A stretch of DNA of 64,000 nucleotides, from the NCBI GenBank assembly GCA_026195255.1, contig JAPHSS010000008.1, positions 62,001 to 126,000 on the forward strand, read 5' to 3'. Under the pieces are notes generated by a model. The model made no database searches. It had not been told where the DNA came from and saw nothing but the letters and a program-made list of their open reading frames with translations. The position numbers and the translations under genes were made by a program. Shown here piece after piece: positions 42,924 through 52,359 of this stretch; the stretch's first letter is position 1, and every line of letters starts with the position of its first letter. The stretch is from Gammaproteobacteria bacterium. Lineage in GTDB: Bacteria > Pseudomonadota > Gammaproteobacteria > SZUA-229.

Positions 42924-43054
42924 CCTTTAACAGACTCTGCCCTACCTTTCATCGGTTTAGGTCTTATTTGTGAAATTATTCACGCTAATTTTAACTAGAT
43001 TAACTAAACTGTTGATAGTACTTAAATTATCTTCTCGTTTATGAAACGGATTTG

Positions 43055-45166
43055 ATGCAAGAACAAACACAACAAGCACGTGCTTTACTGTCTGTAATTC
43101 GTAATAGTCTGTGGTTACCTTTACTGGTGCTGCCGGGCCTGTTTTCTACAACTTACGCTTCTGCAAATCTTGATCTGCTCAATCTATCAAGCAGCCAGAA
43201 CAGTCAACAAAATATAAAACTAGCTCAACAACGTAAACTCTTTCAAGAAGCTCAAAAGGCTTACAAAAAGCGCCTTTACCATCGTTTCAGAAAACTTTCT
43301 GCCAAGTTAGAAGATTATCCACTGCAGCCTTATCTAGAATATAAAGCACTAATGTATAAACCAGAAGCGCTTAGCAGTAATCAAATACATAATTTTTTAC
43401 AGGAAAACGAAGATACCGTCATTGGCAACCGATTTCGCAGCGCTCTAATCAAACACGCTGCACGCTCACAAAACTGGCAAAGATTAATTGATATTTACCG
43501 ACCCAATTACGGCACGTCGGCCCAGTGCCAGTATTTAAATGCACTAATAAAAACCAACCAGAAAGGCATCGCTTACCCTAAAATTGAAAACCTCTGGCTT
43601 TCTGCGCGCTCGTTGCCAAAAAGTTGCGACACGGTATTTAATCAATGGGCAAAAGAAGGCCATAAAACACCCCAGGTGATCTGGCAACGTTTTACCCTGG
43701 CAATGTCGGTTAACAATAAAAGCCTCGCGTCATACCTGATTAAGTCACTACCAGCAAAAGATGCGACTATAGCCAGAAAATGGTTAAAAATTCATAAAAA
43801 ACCGCAGCTTGTGAATAGTGCTGAAATGCTAAATATTCAACATCCGGATAAAAGCGCCATATTGCAACATGGCTTAAAACGTTTAAGTTACAGAGACATA
43901 ACGCAGGCCATCACACTGTTTCATGAGCTCAAGCAGGACACATTCAATGAACAGCAAAATGCCGAATTAGTACGCCATTTTGGTCTGCGTCTGGCACGCC
44001 AACACATGCCTGACGCGGCAATCTGGCTTGCCCGAATCCCTGATAGCCACGTAGATAAAACGGTTAAAGAGTGGCGAATCCGCACAGCAATTCGTCAGGG
44101 CGACTGGGATCTGGTGTTAAACAGCATCACTCAGCTAGACACCGATAAACAGGCAGACTATCGCTGGCAATACTGGTGGGCATACGCGAATGAACAACTG
44201 GGTAATACTGACGATGCATCAGGCATTTACCAGTATCTCGCTAATAAACGCAGTTACTATGGTTTTCTAGCCGCCGATCACTTAAATCAGCCGTATGCTT
44301 TTGAAGACAAACCAGTAGAACCCACAGTTGATGTTATTAACATTGTGTCTCAGCAACCTGAAACACTGCGTGCCCGCGAGTTCTATATCATGGGAGAAAT
44401 CATCCCTGCCAGACGTGAATGGCATAAACTTATCTCAAATCTCGATACCGAACAAAAATTAGCTGCATCAAAAATTGCACAGGCTTGGAACTGGCATGAC
44501 CGGGCTATTGTTACCATGGGTAAAACGCGTTATCGCGACGATATTGAATTACGCTTCCCACTTCATCTCGATAAAAAAGTCTTTAGCTGGTCTAAGCAAC
44601 GTAAAATTGAACCTGCCTGGACATATGCCATCATTCGTCGAGAAAGTGCCTTTATGTCTGATGCACGCTCATCGGTAGGTGCTATGGGGCTAATGCAATT
44701 AATGCCCAATACTGCCCGACAGATAGCAAGGCAATTAAAGATTCGTTACCGTGGCCGCCATAGCCTGTTAACCAGCAATACAAATATTAGCCTGGGAACT
44801 GGTTATCTTGAACGTATGTTAAATAAGCTAGATCAACAACAGGTATTAGCAACAGCTGCTTATAACGCTGGGCCACATCGAGTGGAAAAATGGCTACCCG
44901 AACACCACAAAATGGATGCTATTCGCTGGATTGAGACCATTCCCTTTAGCGAAACTCGTGAGTATGTTAGTAATGTTTTAGCCTATATGGCCATTTATGA
45001 ACACCGAATGGATAAGCAAATTACACGGTTAAGCCATCGCATGCCGCCAATACCCGCGAGAAATCCTCAACTGCCTGCGGTCGCCATTACAGAGGCGGTG
45101 ACACCTGCCGTTTTACCAACACCAGCAGACCAGGCTCATATCAAAAACTCAAACGACCCCTCTTAA
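43055..45166 (+). CDS. slt: Lytic murein transglycosylase (Slt70 type)
   Basis: Slt70 cleaves peptidoglycan to 1,6-anhydromuropeptides in the periplasm. The 703-residue product has a signal peptide ending near TYASA (about 39), a long helical superhelix (about 45-480), and a lysozyme-like domain. The catalytic glutamate is Glu530 in AIIRRESAF, followed by GAMGLMQLMPNTARQIA and AAYNAGPHRVEKWLP. Length and order match the family. It starts at ATG 43055, with a TTG directly before it. Confidence 0.93.
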   Translation: MQEQTQQARALLSVIRNSLWLPLLVLPGLFSTTYASANLDLLNLSSSQNSQQNIKLAQQRKLFQEAQKAYKKRLYHRFRKLSAKLEDYPLQPYLEYKALMYKPEALSSNQIHNFLQENEDTVIGNRFRSALIKHAARSQNWQRLIDIYRPNYGTSAQCQYLNALIKTNQKGIAYPKIENLWLSARSLPKSCDTVFNQWAKEGHKTPQVIWQRFTLAMSVNNKSLASYLIKSLPAKDATIARKWLKIHKKPQLVNSAEMLNIQHPDKSAILQHGLKRLSYRDITQAITLFHELKQDTFNEQQNAELVRHFGLRLARQHMPDAAIWLARIPDSHVDKTVKEWRIRTAIRQGDWDLVLNSITQLDTDKQADYRWQYWWAYANEQLGNTDDASGIYQYLANKRSYYGFLAADHLNQPYAFEDKPVEPTVDVINIVSQQPETLRAREFYIMGEIIPARREWHKLISNLDTEQKLAASKIAQAWNWHDRAIVTMGKTRYRDDIELRFPLHLDKKVFSWSKQRKIEPAWTYAIIRRESAFMSDARSSVGAMGLMQLMPNTARQIARQLKIRYRGRHSLLTSNTNISLGTGYLERMLNKLDQQQVLATAAYNAGPHRVEKWLPEHHKMDAIRWIETIPFSETREYVSNVLAYMAIYEHRMDKQITRLSHRMPPIPARNPQLPAVAITEAVTPAVLPTPADQAHIKNSNDPS

Positions 45167-45741: not shown

Positions 45742-46029
45742 ATGTCGAATATTCCATTAATACAGCAGAATCGGATAGCGGCTTCGCCGCGGCTTAGACG
45801 GGCCAATAAGGTTACTTCAAGTGAGCAACCTGGCGAAGCAGCACCAAAGGTGCAACGGCGCTTAGAACGCCGCAAGAATCAAAATCGCCGAAAAAAACAG
45901 GTGAGTGTTCGTTTTGATCGACGCCTGCAGGGAAACCACCGTAGAAATCACCTATCTATACGACAATCCGCTGCAGATAACGCTGATTTGAGCGATAATG
46001 TCGGTAGACACATCAACATAACTGCTTAA
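45742..46029 (+). CDS. Small basic arginine-rich protein
   Basis: The 95-residue product is very rich in arginine and lysine, with RRLERRKNQNRRKKQ and then RFDRRLQGNHRR, and little hydrophobic content. It resembles small RNA- or DNA-binding-like unstructured proteins. No ribosome site precedes the ATG, so the start and even translation are uncertain. It is followed 19 bases later by a membrane-protein gene. Confidence 0.5.
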   Translation: MSNIPLIQQNRIAASPRLRRANKVTSSEQPGEAAPKVQRRLERRKNQNRRKKQVSVRFDRRLQGNHRRNHLSIRQSAADNADLSDNVGRHINITA

Positions 46030-46048: not shown

Positions 46049-46327
46049 ATGAACAAATCCGCCTCAATACTTATAAAAGTAACCATTTTCGGCCTCATAA
46101 CTGCATTAGGTATAATTTATGTTTTCAACCGCTCTTCGGTAGACAGCATGAGCACTTATGAAAAACGGGAAATGGTAAAACCCAATCGCGAGAAATCTGT
46201 CATCGATCAGTTTTTTTCAGACGATGATAATAAACGTAAAAATTCCGCTGAAGATGATGATGACATATCATTGATGGGCACCTCCGGGCGTTACGATGAA
46301 GTTCGTATCGGTGGAAGTAGCGAGTGA
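46049..46327 (+). CDS. Small single-pass membrane protein with acidic tail
   Basis: The 92-residue product has one hydrophobic segment at about 7-25 (ILIKVTIFGLITALGIIYVF) and then a polar, strongly acidic tail (FFSDDDNKRKNSAEDDDD). It is probably anchored in the inner membrane with the tail on one side. It ends nine bases before the convergent phosphoribulokinase-like gene. Function is unknown. Confidence 0.65.
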   Translation: MNKSASILIKVTIFGLITALGIIYVFNRSSVDSMSTYEKREMVKPNREKSVIDQFFSDDDNKRKNSAEDDDDISLMGTSGRYDEVRIGGSSE

Positions 46328-46336
46328 CAGGTAAAC

Positions 46337-47269
46337 TTACTTAATACGACTTTGAATTAAATTCTCTATTAGTGGCGCGCAAATGATATCCAGCGCATGT
46401 TGTAGTTGCCCACCCGGAATAACGAGACTCCTGCCTCCTGATGCAAACGAACCATTAATACGCTGCAAATACTCATCTATATTATGTTTAGACGGGTCCT
46501 TAAAACTAATAACTATAATACTTTCTTTTTCAGTTGGAACAGCTTGCAGATCAAATGGGTTAGATGTATCAACAACTGGCATACGTTGAAAGTTTATATC
46601 TGTAACCGAAAACTGCGGTACTATAAAATGAATGTAATCCTGAAGCTGATCCAGAATATTCGCTGTTACCTGTTTTGCTGATTGTTTATAATTGATACGA
46701 TCATGATTAATTCGTTGTATCCATTCAAGATTAATAGCCGGAACAACACCTATCAATAGATCAACATGTTGAGCGGCGTTAACACCATTTGTTTTAGCGC
46801 TACGCCTGTCTTTTGTTACTGCTTCTGTATTGTCTGATTTTCGTCTGGTCCATGTTTCCGCAACCACACCTCCATGCATGCCCTCATAAAACAGGCAATC
46901 TGACTCACTCGGGCCTCTTTGCCACTCTGTGAACTCACCTGGAGGTACGTCATATAAATGCTGGTTTTCAGTCGTTACTTTAAAACGAATATCGCAATTT
47001 CCATTTTTTGAGTAACTACTAAAACAGTCCTGAAGTTTAGAGAAGTCGTTTAAGTCTGGCCCATAACTACTGAGGTGTTTTCCATCTGTTAACATTTTAG
47101 CGATATAACGCTTACTTTCAGATTCGTTATAACGTAGAAAGCCATCACCTTGCACAAAAGCCGCATTGATTTTTTGTCTGAAGAATATCTCTTTAAAAGC
47201 CTGCTGCACTACAGTTGTTCCAGCACCGCTGGCACCAGTAACAGCAATAATCGGATGTTGCTCTGACAT
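46337..47269 (-). CDS. Phosphoribulokinase-family P-loop protein with altered substrate residues
   Basis: The 310-residue product is clearly in the proteobacterial phosphoribulokinase family: P-loop TGASGAGTT at 11-19, FYEGMHGGVV at 127-136, HVDLLIGVV, QFSVTDINFQR and VVDTSNPFD. Compared from memory with Rhodobacter phosphoribulokinase, Asp42 and Asp169 are kept. His45 reads Leu (QGDGFLRY), Arg49 reads Glu, His100 reads Thr, Arg168 reads His and Arg173 reads Tyr. About 25 basic residues are inserted at 137-162. It may phosphorylate another substrate or be inactive. Confidence 0.85.
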   Translation of the reverse strand: MSEQHPIIAVTGASGAGTTVVQQAFKEIFFRQKINAAFVQGDGFLRYNESESKRYIAKMLTDGKHLSSYGPDLNDFSKLQDCFSSYSKNGNCDIRFKVTTENQHLYDVPPGEFTEWQRGPSESDCLFYEGMHGGVVAETWTRRKSDNTEAVTKDRRSAKTNGVNAAQHVDLLIGVVPAINLEWIQRINHDRINYKQSAKQVTANILDQLQDYIHFIVPQFSVTDINFQRMPVVDTSNPFDLQAVPTEKESIIVISFKDPSKHNIDEYLQRINGSFASGGRSLVIPGGQLQHALDIICAPLIENLIQSRIK

Positions 47270-47457: not shown

Positions 47458-47826
47458 CTATTTTTTAAATACTGCTTGCCAGCTTTCCAGATCAGTTATT
47501 GTATCTGAACGCTCACGCAACACTACTCCAATCTGAAAGTAATCACTCACGTCCGTTGCTTTGCACCAACGAACATTTCCAGTAAGAAAATATTTCTTTT
47601 TACTATCTTTTAATGTCACCCACACATCAAGAACACTATCGAGTTTGATCTGTTGATTAAGCTCAATTCTCAAACCAGAAGCAGATACATCAATAGTAGA
47701 ACCACATAATGTTTTGCCCAATAATCCCGGATTCTCAGATGAGAAAACAATTTTCATATCGAGCGCTTCATTTAACTCATAACGTATTGAATCTCGACGT
47801 TCCTGAACTTTATTTATATTATCCAC
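47458..47826 (-). CDS. PilZ-domain protein
   Basis: The 122-residue cyclic-di-GMP-binding protein has RxxxR at R11-R15 (RDSIR) and DVSASG at 46-51. Its C-terminal half LDVWV, KYFLTGNVRWC and FQIGV matches that of the PilZ protein at 36450-36815, so the two are paralogues. It is leftward and 188 bases from the phosphoribulokinase-like gene. It has two cysteines only, at 41 and 88. Confidence 0.88.
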   Translation of the reverse strand: MDNINKVQERRDSIRYELNEALDMKIVFSSENPGLLGKTLCGSTIDVSASGLRIELNQQIKLDSVLDVWVTLKDSKKKYFLTGNVRWCKATDVSDYFQIGVVLRERSDTITDLESWQAVFKK

Positions 47827-48002: not shown

Positions 48003-51000
48003 TTATACCGCAGATCTGGATTTAAAGCCTAAATGACGTTTAATATCTTCAAGAATATAATAACTGGCGGGAACCAGTAATAAACTGACAACTGTTGCAA
48101 ACATCACACCAAATGCCAATGAAACTGCCATAGGGATAAGGAATTGCGCTTGCACACTTCGCTCCATCATAAGAGGCGTTAAACCTGCAAACGTAGTTAA
48201 CGAAGTTAGAACAGTAGGTCTGAATCTGGCCGCTCCCGCATCACGAATAGCTCGCGTTAATTCAACTCCCGCTTCACGTTTACGGTTAATATAATCAACC
48301 AGCACAAGATTATCGTTCACGACTACACCGGCAACTGCAATCATACCGCTCAGAGATAAAAGACTAATATCCAGGCCTAATAACATATGCCCCAGCAAAG
48401 CACCAATTAAGCCAAATGGAATTGCACTCATCACCATCAAGGGCTGTGAATATGACTTAAACGGAATTGCCATTAATGCATAAATACCAATTAATGCGAG
48501 AATAAAACCTCGTATCATCGCACTTACCATTTCTTGCTGGTCTTTCTGACTACCGGATTTGCTCCACTTCACACCAGCAAACTGTTTTTCTAAATTAGTC
48601 AGAAAGTCTTTATTGATGCTTTCGTTAATTTGCGCAGGTACCGCTAAACTTTGATCTACACGCGCGCTTACACTAATGACACGTTTTCTATCAATACGTA
48701 AAATTTCAGACGGACTTGAAGTGTATTCAATATCAGCCACCTCACTTAAAGGTACATCCACTCCATTATTTAGATGTATAAACATAGTCTCAAGAAAATA
48801 CACAGACTGGCGCTGACCTTTAGGGTAACGTACAAAAACCCTTACATCATCTCTGCCCCTTTGAATACGCTGCACTTCTTCGCCATAAAATGCCTGTCTT
48901 ACCTGGCGTGCGAGTAACTTTGCATTAATCCCTAAAAATTCTGCTTCGGGTTTAAGATGTAAACGTATCTCTTTTTTACCGGCTTCATAACTATCCTGAA
49001 TATCATAAACACCACTATACTGATGTAACTTCTTTTTAAGTGCTTTTGCAGCAATAGATAATTCATTCTCATCTCGGCCGGTTAAATCAATGCTAATCTC
49101 CGGCCCTGAATCCCTTAAGTTAGATTGAAATGTAAGCTGCGTAGCAGCGGGAATTTTTCCTACCGCCTGCCGCCATAAACGTAGAATCTCTGCACTTTCT
49201 ACCTGCCTGTCTTCTGAGGCGCGTAACGATATAGACACCTCACCTACATGGTCGCCTTTTTTACCGCTGTGGTTCATTGCCTGCAAACCAACGGTTGAAA
49301 TTATATTTTCAATTTGATCTTCGCCTGTACGTAATTTCAACTGCTTTTTCAATTGCAGTGCGGCAGATTCAATTCTTTCAACTGCAAGTTCTGTTTTATC
49401 AACCGGTGTGCCCTGCGAAAAACTGATACTGGCTATTGCTATATCCCCTTCAACTTTTGGAAAAAACAACAGGTGTATCCAGCCCGCATATAATATGGCG
49501 ACAAAAACTATAAATGCGCCGACAAATGCCGACAATGTGACATAACGAAAGTGTAAAACTTTCAATAATACAGGCCGATAATTATTTTCTATTACATTTT
49601 CTAACCAATCTGAAAAACGACCTTGAAAACGAGAAAAGCGACTTTCCTGTCTCTCATGGGTTTTAATTGTTGCTAAATGTGCGGGTAAAACAAACAGACA
49701 CTCTGCCAGTGAAAATAATAACGTTAATATTACAACCTGAGGAATCACCATCCATAAACGCCCTTCAGCGCCGGGTAAAAATAATATCGGCATAAAGGCG
49801 ACGACACTGGTTAATACCGCAAATATAACGGGTTTAGAAACTTCCTGTGCACCTTCAATCGCGCCTTTTAAACCAAGATTACCCTTTAGATGGTTCTTAT
49901 GAATGTTTTCACCAACCACAATAGCATCATCAACCACTATGCCTAACACCAATATAAACCCAAACATAGAAATCATATTGATAGAGCCATCAACATGAGG
50001 CAATAACCAGAAGGCTCCCATAAAAGAGATAGGTATGCCCAGGCTAACCCAAAACGCTAAACGTAACCTTAAGAATAAAACCAGAATTAAGAAGACCAAT
50101 AACAAACCCGTTAATGCATTTTTTATGAGCAAATACATACGACTTTTAAAATAACTGGATTTATCCTGCCATATATTTAATGAAACACCTTCAGGCAACT
50201 GTGGTGATTTATTCTTTATGTAATCTTTTATGCTATCAGAAATTTCTAAAATATTCTGTTCGCCGACACGGTAAACTGTAATTAACAAACCGGGATTACC
50301 GTTAAACTCACCTTTAAATTCTACGTCTTCAAAACCATCTATGATTGCAGCAACATCCGCCAGTTTAATCGAACTGCCATCCTGATTTGCACGTAATGTT
50401 AACTGCTCATAATCATCACCAGTATATGCCTGTGCCTGTGTGCGCAACAAGACATCACCACCAGGTGTTTTTAAATGCCCTGCAGGCAAATCCAGTGACG
50501 ATGTTCTTACCGCTTCTGCCACCTCGTCAAAATTTAAATCAAATTCATGTAAACTGGTTTCAGACAATTCAATAGACACTTCATAGTTTCTTGCATTAAT
50601 CAATTCGACCTGGGTGATGCCTTTTATTTCTGTTAATTCATCACGTACAGATTCAGCAATATTTTTTAATGTAAATTCATCAACAGCCCCCGACACAACA
50701 ACACTTGCAACACTGCTTTTAATACTAATTTCACGAATCTGAGCCCGTTCAGCCTGCTCAGGAAATGTTGAAATAGTATCAATACGTGATTTAATTTCAT
50801 CCATACGTTCACGCGCATTATATTCAGCTTCAATACTAGCTGTTACATTACATACCCCTTCAGCTGCACGGCTTGTTAATTTTCGAATACCTTCAATATC
50901 AAATATTGATTCTTCTATGCGAATACAAACTGTTTTTTCAACCTCCTGAGGAGACGCCCCAGGAAAGGCCACACTAATATTGACCTGATCTAATGAGATA

Positions 51001-51119
51001 TTTGGAATGAGCTCTTTGCGCGTCGCCTGTAATGAGAATAGACCTGCAACAACTATAAGTAACATCGTTAGATTGGCTGCAACCTGATTCTCGGCAAACC
51101 AGGCTATCAACTTATTCAT
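48003..51119 (-). CDS. RND efflux permease (AcrB-like)
   Basis: The 1038-residue inner-membrane pump has the RND start KLIAWFAENQVAANLTMLLI, 12 expected membrane segments, and the double Asp proton-relay motif GIVVDDAIVVGEN. The KELIPNISLDQVNISVAFPG segment of the periplasmic domain is also typical. It exports drugs, detergents or metabolites and uses the adaptor encoded just upstream. No outer-membrane channel gene is nearby, so a TolC-like protein from elsewhere is required. Confidence 0.95.
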   Translation of the reverse strand: MNKLIAWFAENQVAANLTMLLIVVAGLFSLQATRKELIPNISLDQVNISVAFPGASPQEVEKTVCIRIEESIFDIEGIRKLTSRAAEGVCNVTASIEAEYNARERMDEIKSRIDTISTFPEQAERAQIREISIKSSVASVVVSGAVDEFTLKNIAESVRDELTEIKGITQVELINARNYEVSIELSETSLHEFDLNFDEVAEAVRTSSLDLPAGHLKTPGGDVLLRTQAQAYTGDDYEQLTLRANQDGSSIKLADVAAIIDGFEDVEFKGEFNGNPGLLITVYRVGEQNILEISDSIKDYIKNKSPQLPEGVSLNIWQDKSSYFKSRMYLLIKNALTGLLLVFLILVLFLRLRLAFWVSLGIPISFMGAFWLLPHVDGSINMISMFGFILVLGIVVDDAIVVGENIHKNHLKGNLGLKGAIEGAQEVSKPVIFAVLTSVVAFMPILFLPGAEGRLWMVIPQVVILTLLFSLAECLFVLPAHLATIKTHERQESRFSRFQGRFSDWLENVIENNYRPVLLKVLHFRYVTLSAFVGAFIVFVAILYAGWIHLLFFPKVEGDIAIASISFSQGTPVDKTELAVERIESAALQLKKQLKLRTGEDQIENIISTVGLQAMNHSGKKGDHVGEVSISLRASEDRQVESAEILRLWRQAVGKIPAATQLTFQSNLRDSGPEISIDLTGRDENELSIAAKALKKKLHQYSGVYDIQDSYEAGKKEIRLHLKPEAEFLGINAKLLARQVRQAFYGEEVQRIQRGRDDVRVFVRYPKGQRQSVYFLETMFIHLNNGVDVPLSEVADIEYTSSPSEILRIDRKRVISVSARVDQSLAVPAQINESINKDFLTNLEKQFAGVKWSKSGSQKDQQEMVSAMIRGFILALIGIYALMAIPFKSYSQPLMVMSAIPFGLIGALLGHMLLGLDISLLSLSGMIAVAGVVVNDNLVLVDYINRKREAGVELTRAIRDAGAARFRPTVLTSLTTFAGLTPLMMERSVQAQFLIPMAVSLAFGVMFATVVSLLLVPASYYILEDIKRHLGFKSRSAV

Positions 51120-52359
51120 GAGAACTTATATCTTCTGATTGATTTACTGAAGAGATTAACTGTGGTGACAATTTCATGCCTTGCAACGGGTAATCGATTG
51201 CATTTATTATAATTTTTTCACCCTGCTGTATGCCTGATTTTATATACACATACTTTCTATCCTTACTGAGAATCTCAACTTGTCTCTTTTGTAACTGATT
51301 TAACTCATCCAGTAACCAGATTTGCTCCCCATAACGCAATGCCTTACGAGGTAATTTAATAATATCTTTATCTATACCTGTCAGTTCAGCTTTAACAAAC
51401 ATTCCCGGTGTTAACGGCGGTCGATCTGTTAATAAATCATCTTCCTCATATGGGGACTCGACTTCGGCCACTAGATAAAGCAGACGGTTACGTGCATCCA
51501 GCTCACCTTCAGTATGACTTAAGCTGGCTTTCCATTGATATTTCCTGGTTGCGGATTCAGCAATTAAATTAATTTTAATGTCATTGACAAGATGTTCGTT
51601 GTTACGCAATTTAATACCTAATAGTTTCGTCTTTTGTAAACTAAGAGGCAGGCGCACAATAACGGACTCGGTAGAATAAATATCAGCCAGCAATGTGCCA
51701 GAACTGACGAACTGGCCAATATCGACCTGTTTATTAACAACTCGCCCATCAAAAGGTGCTGTTACATTGGTGCGCTGCATTTGTAACCTGGCAATTTCAA
51801 GGTCCGCCTTTGCAGCCTGCAAGTTTGCTTTTGCCTCGGCTAACTGGGGTTCACGAAGTGCATAAGCTGTAGATTTAGACGGATCACGTCCAATTTGTTG
51901 TAAATCATATCTGGCCTGCCCGGCTTCTGTTTCAACTCGTACTAACTGTTGCTGTGCAGCAGCAACTATGGCTTTAGCCCTGCTCATAGCCAAACGATAA
52001 TCTGTATCATCAATACTTAATAACAAATCACCTTTTTTAAAAAAACCACCATTAATTTTTAACTTTTCCATATGCGTGATACGACCACTAACCTGTGCCA
52101 CCAGCTTTATATATGTTTTTGCCGTGACACTACCCTGTGAAAAAACCGGTACCGCAACAGGTTCTATGTTTGCTACAACATACTCTGCTAATGGATGTTC
52201 CTCTTTGCTTATTTTTTTTTCCGCTTCAGGTTTAAAAACATAAAGCGCGAATGACATTCCAATAGCAACTATAAAAATAACAAGAACAATCGGCCATTGC
52301 TTTTTTGGGTTATCACGTGTATTTAATGCAGGTTCCTGTGCTTGTTTATTATCATTCAT
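51112..52359 (-). CDS. RND efflux periplasmic adaptor (HlyD/MFP family)
   Basis: The 415-residue adaptor has one N-terminal membrane segment (about 22-42), a lipoyl-like domain with GSVTAKTYIKLVAQVSGRI, a helical hairpin (AIVAAAQQQLVRVETEAGQA) and a TNVTAPFDGRVVNKQVDIGQ strand motif. It bridges the pump and the outer membrane. Its end overlaps the pump gene by eight bases, showing translational coupling. Confidence 0.93.
   Translation of the reverse strand: MNDNKQAQEPALNTRDNPKKQWPIVLVIFIVAIGMSFALYVFKPEAEKKISKEEHPLAEYVVANIEPVAVPVFSQGSVTAKTYIKLVAQVSGRITHMEKLKINGGFFKKGDLLLSIDDTDYRLAMSRAKAIVAAAQQQLVRVETEAGQARYDLQQIGRDPSKSTAYALREPQLAEAKANLQAAKADLEIARLQMQRTNVTAPFDGRVVNKQVDIGQFVSSGTLLADIYSTESVIVRLPLSLQKTKLLGIKLRNNEHLVNDIKINLIAESATRKYQWKASLSHTEGELDARNRLLYLVAEVESPYEEDDLLTDRPPLTPGMFVKAELTGIDKDIIKLPRKALRYGEQIWLLDELNQLQKRQVEILSKDRKYVYIKSGIQQGEKIIINAIDYPLQGMKLSPQLISSVNQSEDISSHE

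Follow-up and report, generated by a model that had tools for sequence, protein, structure and literature searches.

A phosphoribulokinase-like clade with a basic insert and replaced ribulose 5-phosphate-binding residues

The window analyzed here is a 64,000-nt stretch (contig C70) of a gammaproteobacterial genome of 3.56 Mb that is 99.9% complete. On its reverse strand lies a gene for a 310-aa phosphoribulokinase (PRK)-like protein, named PRKx here, which is embedded in a block of conserved neighbors. The genes and the landmarks of PRKx that are used below are listed by position; open reading frames were called mechanically, and some of the neighboring genes are uncertain.

43052..45166 (+): soluble lytic transglycosylase (Slt), in the same conserved block
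45742..46029 (+): conserved neighbor, a small Arg-rich protein in which [DE]RR motifs recur and which ends in "INTxA"
46049..46327 (+): conserved neighbor, small and convergent, hydrophobic over an N-terminal stretch and carrying a C-terminal "SLxGxxGRYDxxRIG" motif; matches no known family
46337..47269 (-): PRKx, PRK-like paralogue, 310 aa (ATG-start open reading frame, family match, full-length relatives, clade)
46379..46381 (-): Cys297 codon (position 276 of the Rhodobacter sphaeroides enzyme, RsPRK); Cys in 47/47 relatives, mostly Leu in canonical PRKs (alignment)
46700..46702 (-): Asp190 codon, equivalent to RsPRK Asp169; Asp in 45/47 (alignment)
46784..46855 (-): basic insert, at about residues 139-162; Trp140 and Arg143 are invariant in the clade, Arg155 and Gly162 nearly so (alignment)
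47144..47146 (-): Asp42 codon (catalytic base of canonical PRKs); Asp in the window protein, replaced by Asn/Glu/Ser in 19/47 relatives (alignment; role via the aligned Asp, PMC9978339)
47216..47236 (-): P-loop GASGAGT, residues 12-18, kept (alignment)
47458..47826 (-): PilZ-domain protein with RxxxR and DxSxxG motifs, upstream of PRKx on the same strand; neighbor in all testable loci of this bacterial family

Bacterial PRKs phosphorylate ribulose 5-phosphate (Ru5P) and are NADH-activated octamers. The window protein matches the Pfam PRK/uridine kinase family (PF00485) over residues 7-236, with an E value of 4e-37 and 128.4 bits against a gathering cut-off of 22, and by sequence it matches RsPRK in the PDB (1a7j, E 7e-65). 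It belongs to the PRK/uridine kinase superfamily and has the fold of a bacterial-type PRK, yet it lacks defining features of a PRK, namely the Ru5P residues and a place among PRKs in the tree. The initial annotation had proposed looking for RuBisCO and a second PRK in the genome, and both are present: a canonical PRK with every diagnostic residue (contig C8:92170-93051, locus L036) and two RuBisCO large subunits, on C47 and C30. Since these sit elsewhere, the window gene is a paralogue in a genome equipped with Calvin-cycle genes.

Residues were called in an alignment with RsPRK, for which a few residues not shown in the PDB match were filled in, E. coli PrkB (from MG1655), and more than 100 relatives. 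RsPRK His45, Arg49, His100, Arg168, and Arg173 are replaced in the window protein by Leu, Glu, Thr, His, and Tyr, exactly as the initial annotation had read them, and we found further changes absent from it: Lys165 to Arg, Arg186 to Asp, Arg187 to Gln, Arg234 to Ser, and Arg257 to Gly. In RsPRK, His45 and Lys165 bind Ru5P and Arg168 binds ATP (PMC5241800); the title of a reference cited there calls Lys165 catalytic. The catalytic base is an aspartate, described in plant numbering (PMC9978339), which by alignment would be equivalent to RsPRK Asp42. That residue is kept in the window protein, as are the GASGAGT P-loop, Glu131, His134, and Asp169, in keeping with the earlier reading that the P-loop and two catalytic aspartates are retained. 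In the window genus, Arg takes the place of Lys165 and none of the four lid arginines (168, 173, 186, and 187) is left; at the lid, this genus is the most degenerate of the clade.

A confident AlphaFold2 model of the window protein, built from 87 aligned sequences (pLDDT 88.6, pTM 0.88), gave a Z of 34.5 against 1a7j, with 276 residues matched to 1.7 Å and 42% identity in the structural alignment. The alignment register is therefore secure, and the replaced residues do not reappear at shifted positions. Uridine-cytidine kinases and pantothenate kinase share the P-loop kinase superfamily fold with PRKx (Z about 14-17 in structural comparison) but, at ~14% identity, are clearly farther from it than any PRK. 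With R. sphaeroides CbbP (1a7j), the window protein has in common the whole-length fold, the P-loop, Glu131, His134, Asp42, and Asp169, and differs from it by the loss of His45, Arg49, and His100, the Lys165-to-Arg exchange, the replaced lid arginines, a 23-residue insert, Cys297, and a clade of its own.

The insert directly follows the YEGxHGG active-site motif. The initial annotation had described about 25 Arg/Lys-rich residues at 137-162; the insert is indeed there, at about 139-162, and amounts to 23 residues beyond RsPRK (41 versus 18 residues between RsPRK 130 and 148), 7 of them Arg or Lys. The model gives the insert low confidence (pLDDT about 53-74), so that a position over the active site is putative, which counts against the kinase reading given below. 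PRKs of family f54 (G106, G244, and G348; loci L190-L192) carry a shorter, unrelated insert in the same place and keep all Ru5P residues; taken alone, an insert at this point is therefore no sign of lost function. We defined the PRKx clade by an insert of the form W-[TS]-x-R ... R ... G after YEGxHGG, absence of His45, and Cys at RsPRK position 276, features that the window protein displays as W140, R143, R155, G162, Leu45, and C297.

We compared 47 insert-bearing proteins, from several dozen Gamma- and Betaproteobacteria, with 118 canonical PRKs including E. coli PrkB. All 118 canonical proteins have H45, R49, H100, R168, R173, D42, and D169. His45, by contrast, occurs in none of the 47, and the other Ru5P and lid residues are kept only in part (His100 in 8/47, Arg49 in 23/47, Arg168 in 25/47, Arg173 in 9/47). 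Lys165 is present in 41/47 and is Arg in the window genus. As for the ATP side, Glu131 and His134 are found in 47/47, Asp169 in 45/47 (Glu in the other 2), and the P-loop glycines in 45/45. Asp42 is present in 28/47, the remainder having Glu (9), Asn (8), or Ser (2), with one of the Ser variants in a member of the window's own genus. Residues specific to the clade are invariant or nearly so: Trp140, Arg143, and Cys297 in 47/47, Arg155 in 46/47, and Gly162 in 45/47.

In a tree computed without the insert and the diagnostic columns, all insert-bearing proteins fall on one side of a branch with a bootstrap of 100 and an SH-aLRT of 98; a quick tree gave the same split with an SH-aLRT of 99. The window protein falls in this clade and not with any canonical PRK, be it RsPRK or E. 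coli PrkB, and the alignment and tree that the initial annotation had called for thus set it apart from the 118 canonical proteins. Because the tree groups all insert-bearing proteins, the gain of the insert and the loss of His45 appear to be a single old event. On these comparisons, PRKx is an ancient paralogue of bacterial-type PRK and the sister group of the canonical enzymes.

That PRKx is nevertheless a true second PRK isozyme, binding Ru5P via other residues and tuned to other conditions, is very unlikely. Such a reading would fit the PRK fold and the identity to RsPRK, the Calvin cycle of carrier genomes, the name phosphoribulokinase that NCBIfam gives to most tested relatives, and the beta clade (Thiobacillus), whose PRKx retains H100, R168, and D169. 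Against it stand His45, universal in the canonical set and missing from every PRKx, the lack of H100 in 39/47, and the absence of K165, R168, R173, R186, and R187, all five, from the window protein. Nor does the gene look like a decaying duplicate, a pseudogene in the making with an active site eroding without replacement. The variation of active-site positions between species of one genus is what such decay might leave, but reading frames are open in carriers of the window lineage, the insert residues and Cys297 are invariant in the 47 proteins, and the gene is retained in 20/24 genomes of family f65. Moreover, dN/dS is 0.055 (NG86) between the window gene and that of a sister species and about 0.04-0.08 in other better-resolved NG86 pairs; selection on PRKx is strongly purifying (dN/dS about 0.05), and decay is scarcely credible. 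The separate clade, the universal lack of His45, the invariant insert residues, and the purifying selection together argue for an old functional paralogue, and we are highly confident that it does not work as a PRK. The part of the initial annotation that denied it a role as Calvin-cycle PRK is well supported, since the genome encodes a canonical PRK and RuBisCO at other sites, the clade is distinct, and the Ru5P site is lost.

The window protein has diverged chiefly on the acceptor side and in the lid: its identity to canonical PRKs falls to 0.30-0.34 at RsPRK 39-110 and in the lid (164-190), remains at 0.60-0.80 for the P-loop and for 111-138 and 147-163, and is 0.66 for 191-225 (RsPRK numbering). 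We tentatively favor, at slightly less than an even chance, a kinase acting on an acceptor other than Ru5P. PRKx would bind Mg-ATP through the kept P-loop, Glu131, His134, and Asp169 and transfer phosphate to this other acceptor, probably itself phosphorylated. Insert arginines 142, 143, and 155 would replace the lost basic residues of the Ru5P site and lid, most likely holding an anionic or phosphorylated acceptor. With a phosphate oxygen as the acceptor group, for which NMP kinases are an example, no Asp42 base would be needed, and the drift of Asp42 would therefore fit. The initial annotation had likewise suggested a kinase for another substrate, which is plausible and goes no further than that, given Asn, Glu, or Ser at Asp42 in 19/47 and a window lineage devoid of Lys165 and the lid arginines.

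The freedom of Asp42 can indeed be read in two ways, as an acceptor needing no base or as absent catalysis. It counts against a kinase, and since the same proteins keep the insert Trp and Arg invariant while Asp42 drifts, the conserved function of PRKx is independent of that residue. The exchange of Lys165 for Arg and the loss of four lid arginines in the window genus are also hard to square with efficient PRK-type phosphotransfer. Together, these two observations make a noncatalytic ATP-binding role a serious alternative: PRKx may be a pseudoenzyme with a regulatory role, derived from PRK, which transfers no phosphate but binds Mg-ATP or senses ATP/ADP. It might act, for example, through mixed oligomers with canonical PRK or through ATP-dependent partner binding by the insert. 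The stretch equivalent to RsPRK 191-225, conserved between PRKx and canonical PRKs, is compatible with such a role, and in R. sphaeroides PRK is already linked with signaling to the cbb genes (PMC4806589). The near-constant retention of E131, H134, and D169, beyond mere structural need, speaks against it. Across the clade, the strict retention of Asp169, Glu131, and His134 slightly favors catalysis; for the window lineage, the loss of Lys165 and the lid arginines leaves catalysis and its absence nearly even. Overall, we regard a noncatalytic PRKx as a substantial possibility, though clearly short of even.

The distribution of PRKx bears on the same choice. Insert-bearing orthologues occur in 5/5 genomes of the window genus and in 7 genomes spread over five further genera of its family. 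A scan of GTDB contigs added betaproteobacterial PRKx, among them those of Thiobacillus thioparus DSM 505 and a Hydrogenophilales MAG. Carriers number 18/369 in an even sample of genomes of the class, counts that are not phylogenetically independent and in which absence from MAGs is weak evidence. Genome G006, rated 100% complete, at first appeared to be without PRKx; its contig C195 (L240) ends beside the PilZ gene, exactly at the expected PRKx start, and with this assembly break the absence is likely false. RuBisCO is present in 17/18 carriers versus 170/351 noncarriers (p 1e-4, uncorrected for kinship). This association would suit a regulator of the Calvin cycle, as would family f65, in which most of the genomes with PRKx also have a canonical-type PRK match. 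Genome G336, a single 2.5-Mb contig that is ~72% complete, argues the other way: it has PRKx, and matches to canonical PRK and RuBisCO were not found there, so a PRK partner is not needed everywhere. More specifically, PRKx might be a PRK-derived pseudoenzyme that takes, in the proteobacterial Calvin cycle, the part of CP12 in cyanobacteria and plants, as a dedicated regulatory subunit or a switch that senses ATP and uses the Arg-rich insert as effector arm; we consider this improbable. If PRKx were regulatory, it would represent an unrecognized layer of CO2-fixation control; it also offers a natural experiment in which a P-loop kinase has changed at its acceptor site and kept its ATP half constant.

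PRK is taken as diagnostic for the Calvin cycle, and profile matches decide whether a genome is scored as having it. With the NCBIfam equivalog for bacterial phosphoribulokinase (NF011997, cut-off 362), the window protein scores 353.6 bits, below the cut-off, and 8 of the 9 other PRKx tested pass at 371-443 bits (8/10 overall with the window protein included). Since most PRKx pass a "phosphoribulokinase" cut-off yet lack the Ru5P site, they can be miscounted as PRK, and in G336 the gene would act as a false Calvin-cycle marker. E. coli, which has no Calvin cycle, encodes a putative phosphoribulokinase, PrkB (b3355), of the same family (about 41% identity) and, like PRKx, a PRK homologue away from RuBisCO; unlike PRKx, it keeps H45, R49, H100, R168, and R173, has no insert, and groups with canonical PRKs. 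Thiothrix genomes are described as having two prk copies, the second phylogenetically distant (PMC10532065, PMC9455678), which, like PRKx, is an extra PRK in sulfur-oxidizing autotrophs; the passages on it in these sources give no residue analysis. A literature search found no paper describing the PRKx clade, unless the distant Thiothrix copy belongs to it, and nothing about PRK pseudoenzymes or a pairing of PRK and PilZ. PRKx is thus a widespread and overlooked sister clade that very probably has another job than its database name.

As for the neighborhood, the PilZ gene and small proteins named in the initial annotation are confirmed at the locus, with no RuBisCO alongside. In the window family the block runs RmuC or RND genes, PilZ, sometimes a small Arg-rich protein, and PRKx, followed on the other strand by a small membrane protein, the [DE]RR-repeat protein, an SH3-like protein, and Slt. 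The PilZ protein could bind c-di-GMP, since the RxxxR and DxSxxG motifs are present, and it adjoins PRKx in 11/11 testable loci of the family, with gaps of about 170-1750 nt. A functional link was rejected: conservation extends to RmuC, the small proteins, and Slt as well as PilZ, and the coupling is loose. Given this block-wide conservation, the variable gaps, the different neighbors in other clades, where no PilZ gene was seen beside PRKx, and genus g9, whose PilZ homologues stand without PRKx, PilZ was not used as evidence of function. In G369, PRKx lies near NMP phosphorylase-like and PRPP-synthetase-like genes; a link to AMP/NMP phosphorylase was rejected across the 369 genomes (6/18 carriers versus 78/351 noncarriers, p 0.26). 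Maf, Nudix, RdgB, HemW, SppA, and Adk neighbors, named by sequence, were dismissed as partners because they are lineage specific, and no conserved neighbor indicating the PRKx substrate was found across loci of several clades.

Several minor features of these loci are worth recording. The [DE]RR small-protein family found in the window at 45742-46029 (+) is conserved beside PRKx, and a second small family (ERRxAxxPRR...DCR...EDEEGF) is found upstream in other genera; besides the window, the loci concerned are L043, L044, L045, L046, L048, and L049, and the proteins scanned against Pfam gave no convincing family match. Directly upstream of PRKx, two genera have a regulator of the CRP/FNR family whose N-terminal cysteines are FNR-like (L044, 2459-3211, and L048). 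An RND transporter and membrane-fusion gene pair, at 48003-52359 (-) in the window, separates RmuC from PilZ here and in some relatives; in G004 and other genera RmuC directly adjoins PilZ, and the RND pair is an apparent insertion into the conserved block. Finally, the Slt gene (43052-45166, +) contains a spurious above-threshold Pfam match to Cucumovirus coat protein.
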